Part shown: piece after piece, positions 2,889-10,078 of the stretch
How the letters are laid out: every line of letters begins with the position of its first letter
Numbering within the stretch: position 1 is the stretch's first letter
Source: Anaerofustis stercorihominis DSM 17244
GTDB taxonomy: Bacteria > Bacillota > Clostridia > Eubacteriales > Anaerofustaceae
Reading direction: 5' to 3'
Assembly (NCBI RefSeq): GCF_000154825.1
Contig: NZ_DS560015.1
Span: 25,052-89,051 of the forward strand
DNA length: 64,000 bases
The notes under the pieces: generated by a model
The model's database searches: none
What the model was told of the DNA's origin: nothing
Seen by the model: the letters and a program-made list of their open reading frames with translations, nothing else
Program-made: the position numbers and the translations under genes

Positions 2889-3006
2889 TCCTCGTGATGA
2901 TAGCGACGGTGTAACACCTGTAAACATACCGAACACAGAAGTTAAGCCCGTCCACGCCTATGGTACTTGTCTGGAGACGGACTGGGAGAGCGGGTAGTCG
3001 CGGGGT
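2889..3006 (+). rRNA. rrf: 5S ribosomal RNA
   Basis: About 118 nt. It carries the conserved core ACCGAACACAGAAGTTAAGC and complementary ends (CCTCGTGATG... with ...CGCGGGG), and lies about 80 nt after 23S as in a normal rRNA operon. A run of eight T residues follows at once, so the end helix plus T-run may act as the first operon terminator. Confidence 0.95.
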
Positions 3007-3047
3007 TTTTTTTATGCTTTTTTAAGTTTTTCTTTTTCTTGTATAGC

Positions 3048-3084
3048 AAAAAAGAATCATAATATATAATTATGATTCTTTTTT
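3048..3084. terminator. Bidirectional terminator between the rRNA operon and the polysaccharide island
   Basis: A perfect 16-bp inverted repeat (AAAAAAGAATCATAAT / ATTATGATTCTTTTTT) with a 5-nt loop. The A and T runs at its two edges let it act on both strands. It stops residual rRNA transcription and ends the minus-strand operon whose last gene stops at 3090. Confidence 0.85.
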
Positions 3085-3089
3085 GTTTA

Positions 3090-4415
3090 CTATTTATTAC
3101 ATTCTAATATTTCATTTTGTATATTTGATAAAATTTCAACAGTTGTTTCTAATTCATTTTCCTTTAATCTTTGAGATTTATTTCTGCTGTTTCTAATTAA
3201 ATCCATCATATCTTGTACTAAATATCTAAATCCATTTCCCTCTAAATTATAGGTATATCTTTTATAATTTTTTTCATTTAAACTTTTTCTCTTGAAATAT
3301 CCAACTTTCCACCATTCATGAGGTATTAAAATACTTCCGTTAGTACCAATGATTTCCATTACGCCTTCCAATTCAATATCATAGCCTATTTCTGCTATTG
3401 CTACTGCATTATCATATTTAAACATCAACATGCTATATATCACATTATTTATATCATCTTTTACTAATTTACAACTTGTCTCTTTATAGTTTGTTCCTAA
3501 TAATTTGATAATTGTACAAATTGGATATATAGCAAGATCTGTAAAGTCCATAATTCTTTCTTTATCAAATTCATTTTTTGAAATACTACATTTAATGCTA
3601 ATTAAATCACCAATTAAATTGCTCCTAGCATGCCATAATAATTGTCCAAATGCTTGTAAGTATAAGAGTGTAATATTGTTATAAAGAACAACATTATTTT
3701 TTTCCGCTAATTCAGTTAGTTCTTTGATTTCTTTTTTTTCTAATGAATAGGGTGCATCACAAATGACATGTTTTTTATTATTTAAAGCTTTTTTTACATA
3801 TTTATACCTATCTTCTCTTTTAGTTTTAACGTAAACTATATCAATACTATTTAAAAAATCATTATAATTATTATATCCTGAATCTAATTCATATTTATTG
3901 CAAAAATCCTTTGCTATTTTTGCATCGTTTGAATACACACTTTCTAAATGTATACCACTAACATGTTTAGGCTCCATTACAGCCTCTCCATCGTATACAG
4001 TATCAGTGACTATTCCAAATTTATAATTTGTCATTTCTTCTTCACGAATTTTTGTACTAGATATGTTTTTAGTTCTTTCTAAGTATTTTACTTCACAATA
4101 TTTTGAAAGATGATCAAATTTGCCTTTCCAATCAGATCCAATAACTAGTACATCTACGTCGTATTTTATAATATCTTGAATTTTTTGTCCTAGATATTCT
4201 TCTACTATAATTAAATCTGCAAACCCTGTTTTTCTAACATTTTCTATTCGAGTTGTTAAGCTGTCTTGAACAGATAATTTTCCACGTTCGCTATCATAGT
4301 TTTCTCCTGTTACTCCAACAATTAAATAATCGCCTTCCTCTTTTGCTCTTTTTAAAATGTTATAATGTCCTTTATGAAAAAGATCAAAGGTTCCATATGT
4401 GATTACTTTCCTCAT
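3090..4415 (-). CDS. TagD-like cytidylyltransferase fused to a Gfo/Idh/MocA-like domain
   Basis: A 441-residue two-domain protein. Residues 1-125 are a cytidylyltransferase of the glycerol-3-phosphate type: GTFDLFHKGH at 8-17 holds the HxGH nucleotide-binding motif, and RTKNISSTKI at 114-123 matches the RTxGISTTxI element of TagD. From about 131 to the end the fold looks like a Gfo/Idh/MocA oxidoreductase, but it lacks a recognisable GxGxxG loop, and the usual EKP catalytic motif reads DAP (220-222). The second domain may therefore be catalytically altered or a binding domain. The ribosome site AAGGAG precedes ATG at 4415. This is the last gene of the minus-strand island and is separated from the SDR gene by a hairpin, so it may have its own promoter. 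Activation of an alditol phosphate with CTP is inferred; the real substrate is unknown. Confidence 0.85.
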   Translation of the reverse strand: MRKVITYGTFDLFHKGHYNILKRAKEEGDYLIVGVTGENYDSERGKLSVQDSLTTRIENVRKTGFADLIIVEEYLGQKIQDIIKYDVDVLVIGSDWKGKFDHLSKYCEVKYLERTKNISSTKIREEEMTNYKFGIVTDTVYDGEAVMEPKHVSGIHLESVYSNDAKIAKDFCNKYELDSGYNNYNDFLNSIDIVYVKTKREDRYKYVKKALNNKKHVICDAPYSLEKKEIKELTELAEKNNVVLYNNITLLYLQAFGQLLWHARSNLIGDLISIKCSISKNEFDKERIMDFTDLAIYPICTIIKLLGTNYKETSCKLVKDDINNVIYSMLMFKYDNAVAIAEIGYDIELEGVMEIIGTNGSILIPHEWWKVGYFKRKSLNEKNYKRYTYNLEGNGFRYLVQDMMDLIRNSRNKSQRLKENELETTVEILSNIQNEILECNK

Positions 4416-4532
4416 TTGTTTCTCCTTATATTAAATTTATTAAAATACTTTGCAGAATATTGTTAAATATATGATTTATATACATTATAATACATTTTAA
4501 ATATTTTATAAAGTGTTAAATTTGTTATAACT

Positions 4533-4568
4533 AATATAAGACTTTCTATATTTAGAAAGTCTTATATT
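4533..4568 (-). terminator. Hairpin after the SDR gene
   Basis: A perfect 15-bp inverted repeat (AATATAAGACTTTCT / AGAAAGTCTTATATT) with a 6-nt loop, just past the SDR stop codon on the minus strand. The following sequence is AT-rich but has no clean U-run, so it may only partly terminate, or may protect the upstream mRNA from 3' decay. Confidence 0.55.
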
Positions 4569-4579
4569 AAAATTAAAAT

Positions 4580-5326
4580 TTAAAAGTATCCATATCCGCC
4601 ATGAATTTCAATAATAGAGCCGTTAATATAATCATTATTTAAAGTGTCTATACATAGCTTTGCTACTTCTTCTGATTTACCAAATCTGTGACATGCGATT
4701 TTTTTGTTAATTCTATCATAGCTTTCTTTTGTGCGTTTTTTTTGCCATGGTGTTTCTATAAAGCCAGGAGCTATAGCATTTATAGCGATATTTTTATGAT
4801 CAAAAAATTTAAGTAAACTTTTAGTTAAATTAATTATACCTGCTTTGGATACACTATATACAAGTGAACCTGAATATGGCTCTATACCTGCATATGATGA
4901 CATAAATAATATTTTTCCATTTTCATTTATATTTTTTTGAAGATCTTGTATAATAAATGTTGGAATTGATAAATTTGTTCGTATTACTTTTTCCCATGTT
5001 TCTATATCATAATCTCCAAATACAACTCTTTTACCATTTTTCTTAGCGTCAATTCCTGTGTTTAAAATTATCCAATCGATATTATTAAATTTTTTAATTA
5101 CAAAATCAGTAAAATTTTTTGCTTCACTGTATTTTGAAAGATCAGCTTTTATAAATGTAACTCTTTTTTTATTTATTTCTGATAAGGAGTTATATATTTG
5201 ATTTGCCGTATCTGAATTATGTCCGTAGTTTACTATAATTTGATTTTTGTCATTATCAGATAATAAATGATAAAGTATAGCTTTTCCTATGCCGCTTGTT
5301 CCTGAAGTTAACAAAATTTTTTTCAT
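4580..5326 (-). CDS. Short-chain dehydrogenase/reductase
   Basis: 248 residues, the normal length for a classical SDR. TSGTSGIG at 7-14 is the NAD(P)-binding glycine motif, SSYAG supplies the catalytic serine region, and YSVSK gives the YxxxK pair. N-T-G at the end of beta-4 replaces the usual NNAG. A cytosolic NAD(P)-dependent reductase or dehydrogenase; the substrate is not evident. It starts 14 nt after the ThDP enzyme gene and so is in the same transcript. With its neighbours it could reduce or oxidise a sugar or alditol group destined for a CDP-linked precursor; that role is inference. Confidence 0.85.
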   Translation of the reverse strand: MKKILLTSGTSGIGKAILYHLLSDNDKNQIIVNYGHNSDTANQIYNSLSEINKKRVTFIKADLSKYSEAKNFTDFVIKKFNNIDWIILNTGIDAKKNGKRVVFGDYDIETWEKVIRTNLSIPTFIIQDLQKNINENGKILFMSSYAGIEPYSGSLVYSVSKAGIINLTKSLLKFFDHKNIAINAIAPGFIETPWQKKRTKESYDRINKKIACHRFGKSEEVAKLCIDTLNNDYINGSIIEIHGGYGYF

Positions 5327-5340
5327 TTTTTTATATCCTT

Positions 5341-7074
5341 TTATATTGTAAGAATTTTTTCCATTATTTCTTTTGGTAAATATGGTTTTTGATTATACAT
5401 TTCTTCTCCAAAGTATGTTTTTGGAAATGCTTCGGAGTTTGAATCTATCAATATTTCAAATAAACAAGGTTTACTAGAATCAACAGTAGTTATTGCATTA
5501 TTCAATTCTTTTTCATTACGTATTTCATAAGATTGCAATGAATATGCTTTTGCTATTTTATAGAAAGAAGGTACTGTGTATCCGTTTTCTCTACTAGAAC
5601 CATAATGTAGTTTATTAAAAAAGTCATTTTGCTGTTGTCTTATCAAACCTAAAGATCTATTATTAAAAACAAATATAAATATTGGTATTTGTTCTCTAAA
5701 TATCCATTGTAGTTCTTGTATATTCATTTGAATAGATCCATCACCACATAAAGCTATACACCTATTGCCTGTTGCATAATATCCACCAATTGCTGCAGGG
5801 ATTGAAAAACCCATTGCTCCGTGTCCACCTGAAAATAACATTTGTTGATTTTCTCTTGTTTCATATGATTGTGCTGCCCACATTTGATGTTGACCAACAT
5901 CAACAAATACAGATAAATCTTCATTAAAATAATTACTTATTTGGCTAACAATCTTATTTACATTTCTTTCTTTTAATTTATTATCAAAGTTTCGCATTTC
6001 ATTTTTAATTGAAATACATGTATTGAGCCAATTTTTTGAAACATTAAAATCAATTTTTTCGATCATACTTCTTATTATACCTTGAAAATCAATACAAAAT
6101 GACAATTCATCTTTATGAACTTTTCTTTTTAATTCTTCCTTATCAAAATCAACTCTTATTATTTTTGCATTTTTAGCAAAATTTTCACTGTTTGCACCGG
6201 TTTGACGTCTACACATACTGCATCCAAAAGAAACTATTAAATCACATTTTTTATAAGAAATTACATTTGCCTCTCTAAATCCGTATGCTGCACCAACATA
6301 TCCAAAAAATAAATTATCATTTATATCAAAAAGGTGCCTTGCTGGAAGACTTGTTATTGTAGGTATATTTAATTTTTCTATTAATTCTTTTATTAATTTA
6401 TGTTCATTGCTGTTTTTCTTTACACCGTTTCCAATTAGAAGTAGAGGTCTTTCGGCATTTCTTATGTTTTCTAAAATTTTATCTGCTATTATATCATATT
6501 GTTTATTGTTAATATTTTTAATTTTAGGTTGAAAAGACTTTAATTTATTAATCTCTATTTCCTCACGCTGGATATTCATTGGAATATCCAATACAACAGG
6601 ACCTTTTCTTCCATCTTGTGCAATATAAAAAGCTTTTTCTAATTCGTATCGGATATCGTTTTTATCCATAATTTGCGTACAATATTTTGTATAATTTTTT
6701 ACCGATGAAATAACATCCATTTGTTGAAACCCTTGTTGCCTTAATGTAGGAATATCTGTATACTCATATAAATTTAACTGTCCTGTTATAAAAACTGTTG
6801 GTGAACTATCAAAAAAAGCATCTGCAATTCCTGACATCAAGTTCATTGCACCTGGTCCACTTGTTGCGTATGCTACACCTGTTTTATTTGATGCTTTTGA
6901 GTATCCTACTGCGGCAAATGCAGCACCTTGCTCATTGTAACAAGTATGATTTTTGATTTTGGTATTTTTATAAATGGAATCAACTAGATGAGCAATCATT
7001 GTTCCTTGGTAACCAAATATATCATGTATTCCTTGATTCACTATGAAATTTACGATATAATCACTAACTTTCAT
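5341..7074 (-). CDS. ThDP-dependent enzyme of the acetolactate synthase family
   Basis: 577 residues from ATG at 7074; a GTG at 7089 would add five residues. The three-domain layout of acetolactate synthase/pyruvate oxidase enzymes is present: an N-terminal pyrimidine-binding domain with catalytic Glu at about 48 (CYNEQGAAFA), a central domain, and a C-terminal pyrophosphate-binding domain with GDGS followed by NN about 26 residues later, the thiamin diphosphate motif. It is unlikely to be the branched-chain amino acid enzyme: no small regulatory subunit or ilv gene is near, and the setting is a LicD cluster. Known relatives in polysaccharide loci, such as YerE, transfer a two-carbon unit from pyruvate to a CDP-sugar; a similar carboligation here is inference. 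The start region overlaps or abuts the upstream small gene. Confidence 0.82.
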   Translation of the reverse strand: MKVSDYIVNFIVNQGIHDIFGYQGTMIAHLVDSIYKNTKIKNHTCYNEQGAAFAAVGYSKASNKTGVAYATSGPGAMNLMSGIADAFFDSSPTVFITGQLNLYEYTDIPTLRQQGFQQMDVISSVKNYTKYCTQIMDKNDIRYELEKAFYIAQDGRKGPVVLDIPMNIQREEIEINKLKSFQPKIKNINNKQYDIIADKILENIRNAERPLLLIGNGVKKNSNEHKLIKELIEKLNIPTITSLPARHLFDINDNLFFGYVGAAYGFREANVISYKKCDLIVSFGCSMCRRQTGANSENFAKNAKIIRVDFDKEELKRKVHKDELSFCIDFQGIIRSMIEKIDFNVSKNWLNTCISIKNEMRNFDNKLKERNVNKIVSQISNYFNEDLSVFVDVGQHQMWAAQSYETRENQQMLFSGGHGAMGFSIPAAIGGYYATGNRCIALCGDGSIQMNIQELQWIFREQIPIFIFVFNNRSLGLIRQQQNDFFNKLHYGSSRENGYTVPSFYKIAKAYSLQSYEIRNEKELNNAITTVDSSKPCLFEILIDSNSEAFPKTYFGEEMYNQKPYLPKEIMEKILTI

Positions 7075-7081
7075 TGATTTA

Positions 7082-7432
7082 TTACTCACTTTCTTTTTTT
7101 ATTATTGGTTTCATAAGTTCCGATGTTGTATTTTGTTCAAGTATATTTGCATACTTAATATACCCTTGAAAGCGCAATAATTTAATTACCATTTCAAATA
7201 ATTCCTCAGTTACTGCAAATCCCATTTTACGTTTAGCATAGTAAATTGATTTATTTTTTAATGTTTCTAAACATAAATCAAGCATTATATAATCTTCCAT
7301 GTGATAATATTTTCTTATGGTATTCATTCTTGGTTTATAATAATAATAAAGTTCAGCTCTGTCTCCTGATCTGCTTAATATAGCCCAACTTTTTACTTTT
7401 GGATAGTTATAAATTTTTTTAATTTTAAGCAT
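7082..7432 (-). CDS. Small protein of unknown function in the LicD island
   Basis: 116 residues, rich in Lys, Tyr and Leu, with no signal peptide or membrane segment visible. I do not recognise a family. A mostly helical protein is suggested by the Leu/Ile/Lys pattern, and a YYYYKPR stretch stands out near residue 30. It lies 24 nt after the LicD gene, and its stop codon runs into the start of the ThDP enzyme gene, so translation of the two is probably coupled. It may be a partner of the ThDP enzyme or the transferase. The frame is fully open between two tightly spaced genes, which supports it being real. Confidence 0.7.
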   Translation of the reverse strand: MLKIKKIYNYPKVKSWAILSRSGDRAELYYYYKPRMNTIRKYYHMEDYIMLDLCLETLKNKSIYYAKRKMGFAVTEELFEMVIKLLRFQGYIKYANILEQNTTSELMKPIIKKESE

Positions 7433-7456
7433 TTATTGTCTCCATTCTTATTTGAT

Positions 7457-10078
7457 TTAATCGTTCCTGTCATAAGAAAAATCTAAATCATAGATTAATT
7501 TTGTCATTGATATAATAGTAGATTTTATTTTGTTCTGAATAATTATTTTTGAAATGTTGTTAAAGAAATCAAAATTAAATTTATTATTCGATGATAACTC
7601 TTTAAATTCTGATTTATTAAATAGTTCCGTTGAAATAACTTCCAGCTTTTCATATATATCTAAACATTTATCGTAATCAGTATAAATATTGTTCCATCTG
7701 CTTATAATCTTTTGAATGTTTATATGATTAATTTTTTTATTTATGCCATTAGATTGTTTATTTATTATTTGTTGAGTAAACATAATAAGATCTAATTTAA
7801 AAACTAAACTTAAAAAATTTAATATATATAAGTTATCAGTAATATTATAAAGTTTTATACTGTTTTCTATTGATTCATCATGAAATCCGGCTTTATATAA
7901 TAATACAGAATTTAAATACATTTTCCATTCATTATTCATATTTGAATTATCAATCATGTCTTTTATATTTTTAAAATTATTAATTTCTTTTGAAAACGAA
8001 ATGTTGATATATATTTCTCCAAAATCAGAGGATTTTGAAATTTGTTTGTAAACATGTTTAAGTTCTAATAAAGTAAGTTCATGACTTTTATTTTCTTTAA
8101 TAAATTTTTTCAGTTCATAAATAAGAGAAAATATATCTTCATTTGATTTTCTGAATAAGTATTTACATTTAGAATATAAAGAGCATGCTTTATCATCTGT
8201 TTTAAGTATATTAAACAAGCCATCTGCGTATTCAAAACTTAAAGGATTTTTTTCATCATATAAAAATTCTATTTTCTTTATAATAAAATTATATTCTTTT
8301 TCTACATAATCTTTAATCTCTAATTGAATAATACCATTAGATGTATTTTTATATGCTTGCATATACATCAATATAGCATCATCCTTATTTGTTTTTAATT
8401 TTAAATCTGCTTTGAATTTTATAAATTCACCATCAATTACTTCTTGTTTTATGTTTTGATCTGTTTTGAGAGATATTGATGTTATATAATAATCTTCATC
8501 ATCTAAATTGTCATTATCATATTCAAGTCCTGCGATTTCTGATTCATTATATTCATTCTCGTTATTAAGTATTGATAAATTATAATTATCAGAATTTTCA
8601 GAAGTATAAATGGTATGATTGATGTCCTCACCTTTCCTAATAAATTTTAGTATATTATCATTTTGAATTCCATTTGAGTTTAATTTACTTAAAATATATA
8701 TTTTAAGTTTTATTGCACTCAAGCAATCTGGATTTTGTTTTAACAGATCATCAACGATTACAGTAGCTTCATCAAAATTATCAGATGCATATAATGAAAT
8801 TGCTTTTTGTAAGTCTAAAATATATTTTTTTAGTATTTGTTCTTGTTCGTTTATACCTTTTTTTTGTTCTTTTATTTGTATAAATCTTAGTGCTTGCGAT
8901 GTTTTACCGATTGTTGTTAATAATTTAACGCAAATATAAAAGTTTTTGTTACTTATTTTTAAATATATTGGTTTTCTAAATCTATTAATTCCGAAATAAT
9001 CTTCACGTCCAATTAAATTTCTTTTGTTTTGGTCATTAATGAAAGATGTAAAAATTATTAAAAGAGCATTATAATGTCTTGCTTCATATGCAGCTAAAAT
9101 TTCGGAATCGAGCTTTTTAAGTATCCTGTTATTTTTTAGTGATAGTATTATTCCACTTAATTGGGCACGGCAGTCTTTAAAGAATTGCCATGGATACATA
9201 CCCAAAAACAATAAGACTTTTCTTTTTAAAAATTTATTATATATTTCATTTACATCGTAATATTTATATGCTTCTTCTTTAATAACAGTATACGGTGTAT
9301 CAAAACAATAAACAGCTTTATGACTGCTACGTTCACTATGTGGAGGTAAAAACATCCAATCGTCTCCATAGTGCCATGAAAGATAGTCTGCAGATTTGTC
9401 GGGGCATATTAAACTTACCTCTTCAAAAGCATATCTCTTCCCTTGTCCATACATATCTTTGTTAAAAACAAATGGAATACCTCCCCATCTAAAAATATAT
9501 TTATTACAATCTTCTTCATTGTAACAAAACATTTTTTTTTCTAATTCGGAAAGTACTTTGTCTTTGCCATATTTTTTTATTTTATGTCTATATTTAAAAT
9601 AATTAATTAGATTTGTTCTCCATCTGAAACTGTATACACTTGACGGATTTATTAAATCGGCATATAATTCAAAATTTTTAATATAATCATTTTGAGCCTT
9701 TTTGTCATCTGGAATCGGATCAAGAACAAATATATCTATAACAATTCCTGCATCATCGTTATGCACTAACTGGTTTGTATGAATTGCTGTGGTGTCGAGA
9801 TCTATATATCTTGCTAAATTATTGTGATAGCCTCTGTCAACTTCTTGACATTCTATGCTTCTATTGGGAGGCAATTGAGTCTTGCAAACTTCAATAAATT
9901 TATGATAATTATCTCTGGTCATTACTATGTCCATATCATCGTCCCATGGAATATATCCACGGTGTCTTAATGCTCCTAATGCAGATCCTCCGGCTAAGTA
10001 ATAAACTATATCATTTTTTTTGCATATCTCATCAATTTCTTTTATTAAAGTATATAAATGGCGTTGAATATTGGTCAT
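7457..10078 (-). CDS. LicD-family phosphotransferase with a very long C-terminal extension
   Basis: 873 residues; LicD proteins are usually about 270-300. The N-terminal part has the LicD nucleotidyltransferase-fold signature: AGGSALGALRHRG at 29-41 followed by IPWDDDMDI at 43-51, with the metal-binding acidic residues. LicD enzymes move phosphocholine or similar groups from a CDP-linked donor to a surface glycan. Residues from about 290 to 873 have no clear family; they look helical and TPR-like in places, with an Asp/Asn-rich stretch near 500-540. No signal peptide, so it acts in the cytosol. A strong GGAGGAAAG site precedes ATG at 10078. It is the first gene of the minus-strand island, and a downstream gene encodes a CDP-forming domain that could make its donor. 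The sequence is visibly AT-richer than the flanking housekeeping genes, in keeping with transfer. Confidence 0.85.
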   Translation of the reverse strand: MTNIQRHLYTLIKEIDEICKKNDIVYYLAGGSALGALRHRGYIPWDDDMDIVMTRDNYHKFIEVCKTQLPPNRSIECQEVDRGYHNNLARYIDLDTTAIHTNQLVHNDDAGIVIDIFVLDPIPDDKKAQNDYIKNFELYADLINPSSVYSFRWRTNLINYFKYRHKIKKYGKDKVLSELEKKMFCYNEEDCNKYIFRWGGIPFVFNKDMYGQGKRYAFEEVSLICPDKSADYLSWHYGDDWMFLPPHSERSSHKAVYCFDTPYTVIKEEAYKYYDVNEIYNKFLKRKVLLFLGMYPWQFFKDCRAQLSGIILSLKNNRILKKLDSEILAAYEARHYNALLIIFTSFINDQNKRNLIGREDYFGINRFRKPIYLKISNKNFYICVKLLTTIGKTSQALRFIQIKEQKKGINEQEQILKKYILDLQKAISLYASDNFDEATVIVDDLLKQNPDCLSAIKLKIYILSKLNSNGIQNDNILKFIRKGEDINHTIYTSENSDNYNLSILNNENEYNESEIAGLEYDNDNLDDEDYYITSISLKTDQNIKQEVIDGEFIKFKADLKLKTNKDDAILMYMQAYKNTSNGIIQLEIKDYVEKEYNFIIKKIEFLYDEKNPLSFEYADGLFNILKTDDKACSLYSKCKYLFRKSNEDIFSLIYELKKFIKENKSHELTLLELKHVYKQISKSSDFGEIYINISFSKEINNFKNIKDMIDNSNMNNEWKMYLNSVLLYKAGFHDESIENSIKLYNITDNLYILNFLSLVFKLDLIMFTQQIINKQSNGINKKINHINIQKIISRWNNIYTDYDKCLDIYEKLEVISTELFNKSEFKELSSNNKFNFDFFNNISKIIIQNKIKSTIISMTKLIYDLDFSYDRND

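Follow-up and report, generated by a model that had tools for sequence, protein, structure and literature searches.

Gene content and composition of the island

The DNA analyzed here is a stretch of 64,000 nucleotides (nt) from Anaerofustis stercorihominis DSM 17244 (contig NZ_DS560015.1, positions 25,052 to 89,051; hereafter, the window), in which positions 3090-10078 of the minus strand hold an island of five open reading frames (ORFs) that appear to encode a cytidine diphosphate (CDP)-dependent pathway of surface modification. In the order of transcription, these genes code for a LicD family phosphotransferase with a long C-terminal extension (7457..10078, 873 amino acids (aa); Pfam LicD), an orphan protein (7082..7432, 116 aa), a thiamine diphosphate (ThDP)-dependent carboligase with a GTG start (5341..7089, 582 aa; Pfam TPP_enzyme N/M/C), a short-chain dehydrogenase/reductase (SDR; 4580..5326, 248 aa; Pfam adh_short), and a fusion of a TagD-like cytidylyltransferase to a degenerate Gfo/Idh/MocA domain (3090..4415, 441 aa; Pfam CTP_transf_like and GFO_IDH_MocA). 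The positions and order of the five genes had been read in a first-pass annotation of the sequence and agree with both the ORFs and the Pfam domains.

The AT-richness noticed in that annotation is borne out: the GC content of the island genes is 0.247-0.283, and the GC content at third codon positions (GC3) of the four island ORFs of at least 150 aa (0.137-0.173) is lower than that of any of the 36 other window ORFs of this size. The island indeed lies beside an rRNA operon, with the 23S and 5S rRNA genes located on the plus strand at the start of the window; they end at 3006, and the 3' end of the island follows after 83 nt. A hairpin in this interval (3045..3087, strand not assigned) is likely to be a bidirectional terminator. 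Within the island, the spacing between the genes is tight: 24 nt separate the orphan from the LicD stop, and the end of the orphan overlaps the start of the ThDP enzyme gene (7082-7089). The exception is the 164-nt gap between the SDR and fusion genes (4416-4579), which folds far better than shuffled sequences (z -4.1) and contains, on the minus strand, a perfect 17-bp inverted repeat with a 4-nt loop (4532..4569). No U-tract follows this hairpin, which might mark a transcript boundary or serve as an attenuator. The island has no match in PADLOC, and a defense function was accordingly discarded.

Recurrence and transfer of the cassette

The five genes form a cassette rather than a chance cluster because the set recurs in two other genomes. 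A search of 148 genomes of one order identified in Aminicella lysinilytica DSM 28287 a fusion protein 63% identical to that of the window, encoded in a cassette with the same gene order. The Aminicella gene run consists of TagD, LicD with an extension (45% identity over 429 aa), a 413-aa LicD-like protein, the ThDP enzyme (51%), the SDR (49%), the fusion, and two PF04464 transferases of the TarB/TagF-like kind, one of which is TarB-like according to NCBIfam. The third cassette was detected in a Clostridia genome, G1266, among 392 genomes searched with the fusion protein of Ruminococcus albus as the query; here, five genes are located side by side in an order different from that in the window, and the identities to the window proteins are 54% for the fusion, 37% for LicD, 44% for the ThDP enzyme, and 47% for the SDR, with a LicD-like protein of 386 aa. 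In each of the three cassettes, the SDR gene adjoins the ThDP enzyme gene, and the three genomes belong to different families.

Horizontal transfer of the island into A. stercorihominis, as proposed in the first-pass annotation, is supported by three features: the low GC3, the recurrence in the distant genome of Aminicella, and the rarity of the genes among close relatives. A fusion relative (E<=1e-20) is encoded in only 1 of the 13 family genomes and a ThDP enzyme relative (E<=1e-125) in only 1 of the 67 order genomes, which in both cases is that of A. stercorihominis DSM 17244 itself. In the open-licence literature in PMC, no paper describing this recurrent gene set as a known pathway was found.

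The ThDP enzyme belongs to a YerE-context clade

The best NCBIfam match of the ThDP enzyme is the acetolactate synthase model (IlvB, TIGR00118), with a score of 399 bits, below the cut-off of 538. Two phylogenetic trees, of 30 and 23 rows, rule out its identity as IlvB, in accord with the first-pass annotation. In both, the window enzyme, with its catalytic Glu in the motif NEQGAAFA, groups with homologs linked to CDP-glucose 4,6-dehydratase genes, away from IlvB. In the 23-row tree, from which RaThDP, PoxB, Gcl, and six IlvB-like rows of the larger tree are omitted (nine further IlvB-like rows are absent from both trees), the split from IlvB receives the support of 100/100, and the three cassette enzymes form a clade (100/99) nested within the dehydratase-linked enzymes. 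The IlvB of A. stercorihominis is encoded elsewhere, in an ilvD-ilvC-ilvN-ilvB run (gene names read from sequence). The ThDP enzyme gene of R. albus was considered as a cassette-type relative and rejected, given that the tree assigns it to a different, distant family.

The assignment to the YerE type comes from the gene context. Among 391 genomes of the class, two other ThDP enzymes match at E<=1e-130 (loci L049 and L050), and both are encoded in RfbF/RfbG/RfbH clusters, with all three Rfb proteins confirmed by NCBIfam in L049 and RfbG in L050. A profile search of 398 genomes of the phylum detected two more outliers, scoring 686 and 585 bits, below which the matches run continuously from 463 bits downward. 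In all six context-typed relatives, namely, the four best non-window profile matches together with L049 and L050 (the clade member L086 was left out), an RfbG-type CDP-glucose 4,6-dehydratase (TIGR02622) scoring above the cut-off is encoded beside the ThDP enzyme. According to the excerpts of PMC12247030, YerE moves activated acetaldehyde onto CDP-3,6-dideoxy-4-keto-D-glucose and accepts both cyclic and open-chain ketones; the same excerpts mention more than 200 YerE-like enzymes identified in silico and thought to act on deoxy-keto sugars, which might include the cassette enzymes.

The island resembles the yersiniose branch of CDP-3,6-dideoxyhexose biosynthesis in that the ThDP enzyme belongs, by gene context, to the same clade as YerE, which attaches two carbons to a ketone linked to CDP, and a reductase is encoded nearby. 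The differences are a distinct kind of SDR, the presence of the TagD-like fusion and LicD instead, and the missing dehydratase: no TIGR02622 match above the cut-off is found in any of the six genomes examined for it, including A. stercorihominis and Aminicella. In these two organisms, the known YerE substrate is thus predicted not to be makeable by the known route, so that the ketone acceptor of the cassette enzyme must differ from it. Because the cassette includes a cytidylyltransferase, the natural candidate for the acceptor is a CDP-linked ketone produced by the fusion protein. An HMGL-like protein (similar to 4-hydroxy-2-oxovalerate aldolase) adjoins YerE-context ThDP enzyme genes in two loci (L050, 6466-9666; L142, 9853-10878), where it may supply an unusual keto-acid donor.

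The TagD-Gfo fusion

The N-terminal domain of the fusion protein (residues 1-126) is homologous to TagD/TarD, with which it shares the HxGH and RTxxIS motifs (RTxxISST in full). It scores 114 bits against TIGR01518, below the family cut-off of 165, and nine alignment columns differ between at least 80% of 27 fusions and four true TagDs. In particular, the TagD-diagnostic Arg63 (numbering on the TagD from L016) is present in 4/4 TagDs and replaced by Gly in 27/27 fusions. The TagD-like domain named in the first-pass annotation is thus present, but its key columns are not those of TagD, and its fusion partner appears to be a dead enzyme (see below). The same gene run of Aminicella that contains the cassette encodes a separate TagD above the cut-off (score 199). 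Because this true TagD is kept, the Aminicella fusion should do something other than CDP-glycerol synthesis and is unlikely to be the CDP-glycerol synthase of this organism. The structure of the fusion was modeled with modest confidence (mean predicted local distance difference test (pLDDT) score of 68, weak around the TagD pocket), so that no substrate was read from the model.

Full-length TagD-Gfo fusions are present in 13 of the 391 class genomes, including that of the window (14 matches, with three further matches covering the TagD part only), and in 5 of 148 and 9 of 392 further searched genomes, these sets being partly overlapping; viral contigs yielded only short TagD-like matches. LicD, PF04464, or glycosyltransferase genes occur in many of the fusion neighborhoods; in R. 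albus 7, the plasmid pRUMAL01 encodes the fusion, together with three LicD proteins, as part of a polysaccharide cluster.

In the C-terminal domain of the window protein (residues ~131-441), the Gly-rich nicotinamide adenine dinucleotide (NAD)-binding loop is missing (GIVTDTVYD) and the lysine of the EKP motif is replaced (CDAP), so that this domain is predicted to be catalytically dead. The Gfo fold is kept nonetheless: the Foldseek matches in the PDB reach E-values down to 4e-19 and include KijD10, a nucleotide-sugar ketoreductase that, according to the PDB titles, was solved with a thymidine diphosphate (TDP)-linked ligand and as K102 mutants. Of 29 fusion loci, 8 retain both the intact loop (GxGRxA) and CEKP, whereas the lysine is gone from the other 21, the motif reading ESP, ESL, DAP, DPP, DMP, EVP, DLP, or DSP. 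In a tree of 27 fusions, from which the near-copy L031 and the truncated L065 were left out, the losses fall into two clades (6 and 14 rows, each supported at 100/100) that are separated by the 7 intact rows.

The state of the Gfo domain covaries with the neighboring genes. Of the 21 lysine-lost fusions, 18 have within 5 kb a gene for an aminotransferase, either class V (PhnW-like) or HisC-like, or for a relative of the window ThDP enzyme; none of the 8 intact fusions do (Fisher 3.8e-5). This value overstates the association, given that the aminotransferase queries were drawn from lysine-lost loci and that the losses are confined to two clades; several of the loci are cut by contig ends. In a Pfam scan of 52 ORFs around 7 intact fusions, no aminotransferase or ThDP enzyme family was among the 25 families listed out of 45. 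Beside the lysine-lost fusions of Mogibacterium kristiansenii (L062) and of L033-L035, an ornithine-cyclodeaminase-like protein and a PhnW-AepZ-like class V aminotransferase (below the cut-off) are encoded, a recurrent pair that may serve in making a head group; in L063, L064, L036, and L140, a HisC/CobD-like aminotransferase is immediately or closely adjacent to the fusion, with an L-lactate dehydrogenase homolog above the cut-off also present in L063. Glycerophosphodiester phosphodiesterase genes (PF03009) lie beside the lysine-intact fusions of L030 and L028 (loci assigned by reading).

The fusion loci share certain features with phosphonyl tailoring (Pnt) clusters, namely, the combination of a cytidylyltransferase with surface transfer, the PhnW-like aminotransferase, and the phosphonate genes near a related fusion in the rumen metagenome-assembled genome RUG11111 (L065/L128). 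There, phosphonopyruvate decarboxylase and phosphoenolpyruvate (PEP) mutase score above the cut-offs, several LicD genes are present, and the contig ends in a TagD-Gfo fusion. This locus was rejected as a fusion module given that unrelated genes intervene and the phosphonate genes include a cytidylyltransferase-PEP mutase protein of their own (read from sequence). The island differs from Pnt clusters in that its ThDP enzyme is not a phosphonopyruvate decarboxylase, and a phosphonate pathway was dismissed for it, with no PEP mutase found in the A. stercorihominis genome.

LicD, the remnant of a second LicD-like gene, and the SDR

The LicD domain occupies residues 1 to ~240 of the 873-aa protein (PF04991 over the first 238 residues, 138 bits against the gathering score of 22.6) and contains the intact acidic motif WDDDMD; it is the only LicD encoded in the A. 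stercorihominis genome. Like other members of the LicD/FKRP family, it has an intact N-terminal catalytic domain, the fold of which matches FKRP (E 5.5e-4), a protein crystallized with CDP-ribitol (PDB title, 6kam). This match favors the cytidylyltransferase-LicD route envisaged in the first-pass annotation. The protein differs from the family in its long, mostly helical extension, the C-terminal half of which is modeled with low confidence, and in the associated partner, LicD2, which is degenerate in the other cassettes and a remnant here.

This remnant is the orphan, which had been listed as a gene in its own right; the ORF is present, but its match to the LicD2 C-terminus rules out a separate family. 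It has no match in Pfam, NCBIfam, or PADLOC and aligns with residues 320-413 of the 413-aa LicD-like protein of Aminicella (29% identity over 94 aa, E 2e-12) and, weakly, with residues 291-336 of the 386-aa one of G1266. In both these cassettes, the second LicD-like protein occupies the place of the orphan, which thus appears to be the tail of a lost LicD2 gene. LicD2 was probably a non-catalytic partner because the WDDDxD motif is missing in both Aminicella and G1266, and the Pfam LicD score of the Aminicella protein (22.4) falls just under the cut-off of 22.6. The SDR retains both the TGxxxGxG-type loop (TSGTSGIG) and the YxxxK motif (YSVSK).

A tentative pathway and its alternatives

The reading that we favor, with somewhat less than even confidence, is that the island is a transferred cassette whose product is a carbon-branched residue of the alditol type, activated with CDP before it is branched and then transferred by LicD. 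The TagD-like domain would couple cytidine triphosphate (CTP) and a small keto-phosphate to yield a CDP-linked ketone; the fused Gfo domain, a putative ketone reductase in the relatives, would be inactive in the island; the YerE-type enzyme would add a pyruvate-derived acetyl unit to the ketone, producing a tertiary alcohol; the SDR would reduce the acetyl to a hydroxyethyl group; and LicD would move the branched alditol phosphate onto a surface polymer. What the computation establishes is the gene content, the conservation of the set across the three genomes, the clade to which the ThDP enzyme belongs, the loss of the Gfo catalytic residues, and the intact motifs of the other enzymes; all the substrates, the step order, and the acceptor are inferred. 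The notion of a branched group, put forward in the first-pass annotation, is supported, whereas the order proposed there, with the residue built before its activation by the TagD domain, is not favored. The precedent comes from the HS:5 serotype of Campylobacter jejuni, where, according to the excerpts of PMC10918830, HS5.18 cytidylates fructose-6-phosphate, and HS5.17 then reduces CDP-6-fructose to CDP-6-D-glucitol. This precedent favors cytidylylation as the first step, with branching and reduction to follow, and confidence in the original order is lowered. The proposed logic is the same, a ketose phosphate being cytidylated and the ketone then acted upon; the differences are that HS5.18 belongs to PF01128 and the island cytidylyltransferase to PF01467, that HS5.17 is separate and active, and that no ThDP enzyme or LicD is reported in these excerpts.

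The first-pass annotation also held that the product decorates an existing polymer. The island contains no polymerase or flippase gene, and a teichoic-acid-like cluster located elsewhere in A. stercorihominis (L126, C4, 8258-13106) could supply the acceptor. This cluster encodes an SDR, a TagH-like ABC exporter, and two proteins that resemble IspD/TarI and TarL, the latter of PF04464; its product may be what LicD modifies. The TarB/TagF-like genes that follow the Aminicella cassette count against decoration alone, and confidence in this part of the proposal is reduced as well.

Several observations weigh against the activation-first cassette. Acetolactate synthase is still the top NCBIfam model for the ThDP enzyme; the trees include no characterized YerE, so that the YerE-type label derives from the gene context; and the Gln at the Trp position of acetohydroxyacid synthase (AHAS), considered as a diagnostic of a non-IlvB enzyme, was dropped because E. 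coli IlvB also has Gln there and the change does not discriminate. The 164-nt gap with its hairpin may uncouple the fusion from the SDR and ThDP enzyme genes, and the retention of LicD2 in both other cassettes, as opposed to the remnant here, could indicate that the cassette is decaying. That decay has already reduced the product to little or nothing, with LicD2 deleted to its tail and the gene run split by the gap and hairpin, seems quite improbable to us, given that the four large ORFs are open, the motifs of LicD, SDR, the ThDP enzyme, and the TagD domain are intact, and LicD2, without WDDDxD wherever it is complete, may be dispensable. A stray acetolactate synthase in a chance neighborhood beside the rRNA operon would account for the top named hidden Markov model, but this is very improbable and already contradicted by the trees, with the clade split from IlvB at 100/100, by the conservation of the set in genomes of different families, and by the presence of the genome's own IlvB in the ilv run.

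The weightier alternatives concern what is activated. The acceptor used by the ThDP enzyme might be a free phospho-ketone or phospho-aldehyde, such as a triose phosphate, and addition of the two-carbon unit would then be followed by reduction by the SDR, cytidylylation by the TagD domain, and transfer by LicD. The gene set, the ThDP enzyme clade, and the adjacency of the SDR and ThDP enzyme genes in three cassettes fit this order too, and no CDP-ketone is required. We nevertheless consider it unlikely, if deserving of attention: the nearest relatives of the ThDP enzyme are encoded with CDP-hexose genes and the YerE substrate described in the excerpts of PMC12247030 is itself a CDP-linked ketone; CDP-6-fructose (in those of PMC10918830) is a case of activation first; and a dead reductase fused to a cytidylyltransferase suggests ancestral reduction of a CDP-ketose. 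Less probable still is that the fusion makes plain CDP-glycerol or another CDP-alditol for LicD, with the ThDP enzyme and the SDR building a separate substituent or an unrelated metabolite. The conserved HxGH and RTxxISST motifs, the best match to glycerol-3-phosphate cytidylyltransferase, and the location of other fusions beside aminotransferases or near phosphonate genes, as if the head-group genes were exchangeable, are compatible with this possibility. It is disfavored by the subthreshold TIGR01518 score, the nine divergent columns with the invariant Gly at position 63, the true TagD in the same Aminicella gene run, and the covariation of the Gfo state with the neighbors.

A broader hypothesis, possible but doubtful at this point, extends the activation-first scheme to all the fusions, which would serve as a hub for one CDP-linked keto-alditol precursor. 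Intact fusions would perform cytidylylation and reduction in one chain; the reductase would have died twice, and at the dead-Gfo loci the CDP-ketone would pass to exchangeable neighbors, either PhnW-like or HisC-like aminotransferases, yielding amino residues, or a captured YerE-type enzyme followed by an SDR, yielding C-branched ones. The surface residues that LicD transfers would then make up a modular code, and C-branched phospho-alditols would be an undescribed class of envelope chemistry. The exceptions have to be counted against this hypothesis as well as against the activation-first cassette: the lysine-lost loci L059, L065, and L141 lack an aminotransferase or ThDP enzyme neighbor, and the three ThDP enzyme cassettes do not group together within the clade of the window fusion. 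A fourth ThDP enzyme-linked fusion, L142, belongs to the other lysine-lost clade; it has no SDR of the cassette kind, and an iron-type alcohol dehydrogenase and the HMGL-like gene adjoin it.

Implications

If these proposals are correct, the reach of YerE-type branching would grow beyond CDP-deoxyhexoses to include alditol phosphates transferred by LicD in Clostridia, and the enzymes involved would be new carboligases accepting CDP-linked open-chain ketones. The association of a dead Gfo domain with an aminotransferase or ThDP enzyme encoded nearby would provide a rule for reading uncharacterized surface-polymer clusters, and so far unseen surface residues would be predicted in Aminicella, Mogibacterium, Ruminococcus, and their kin.

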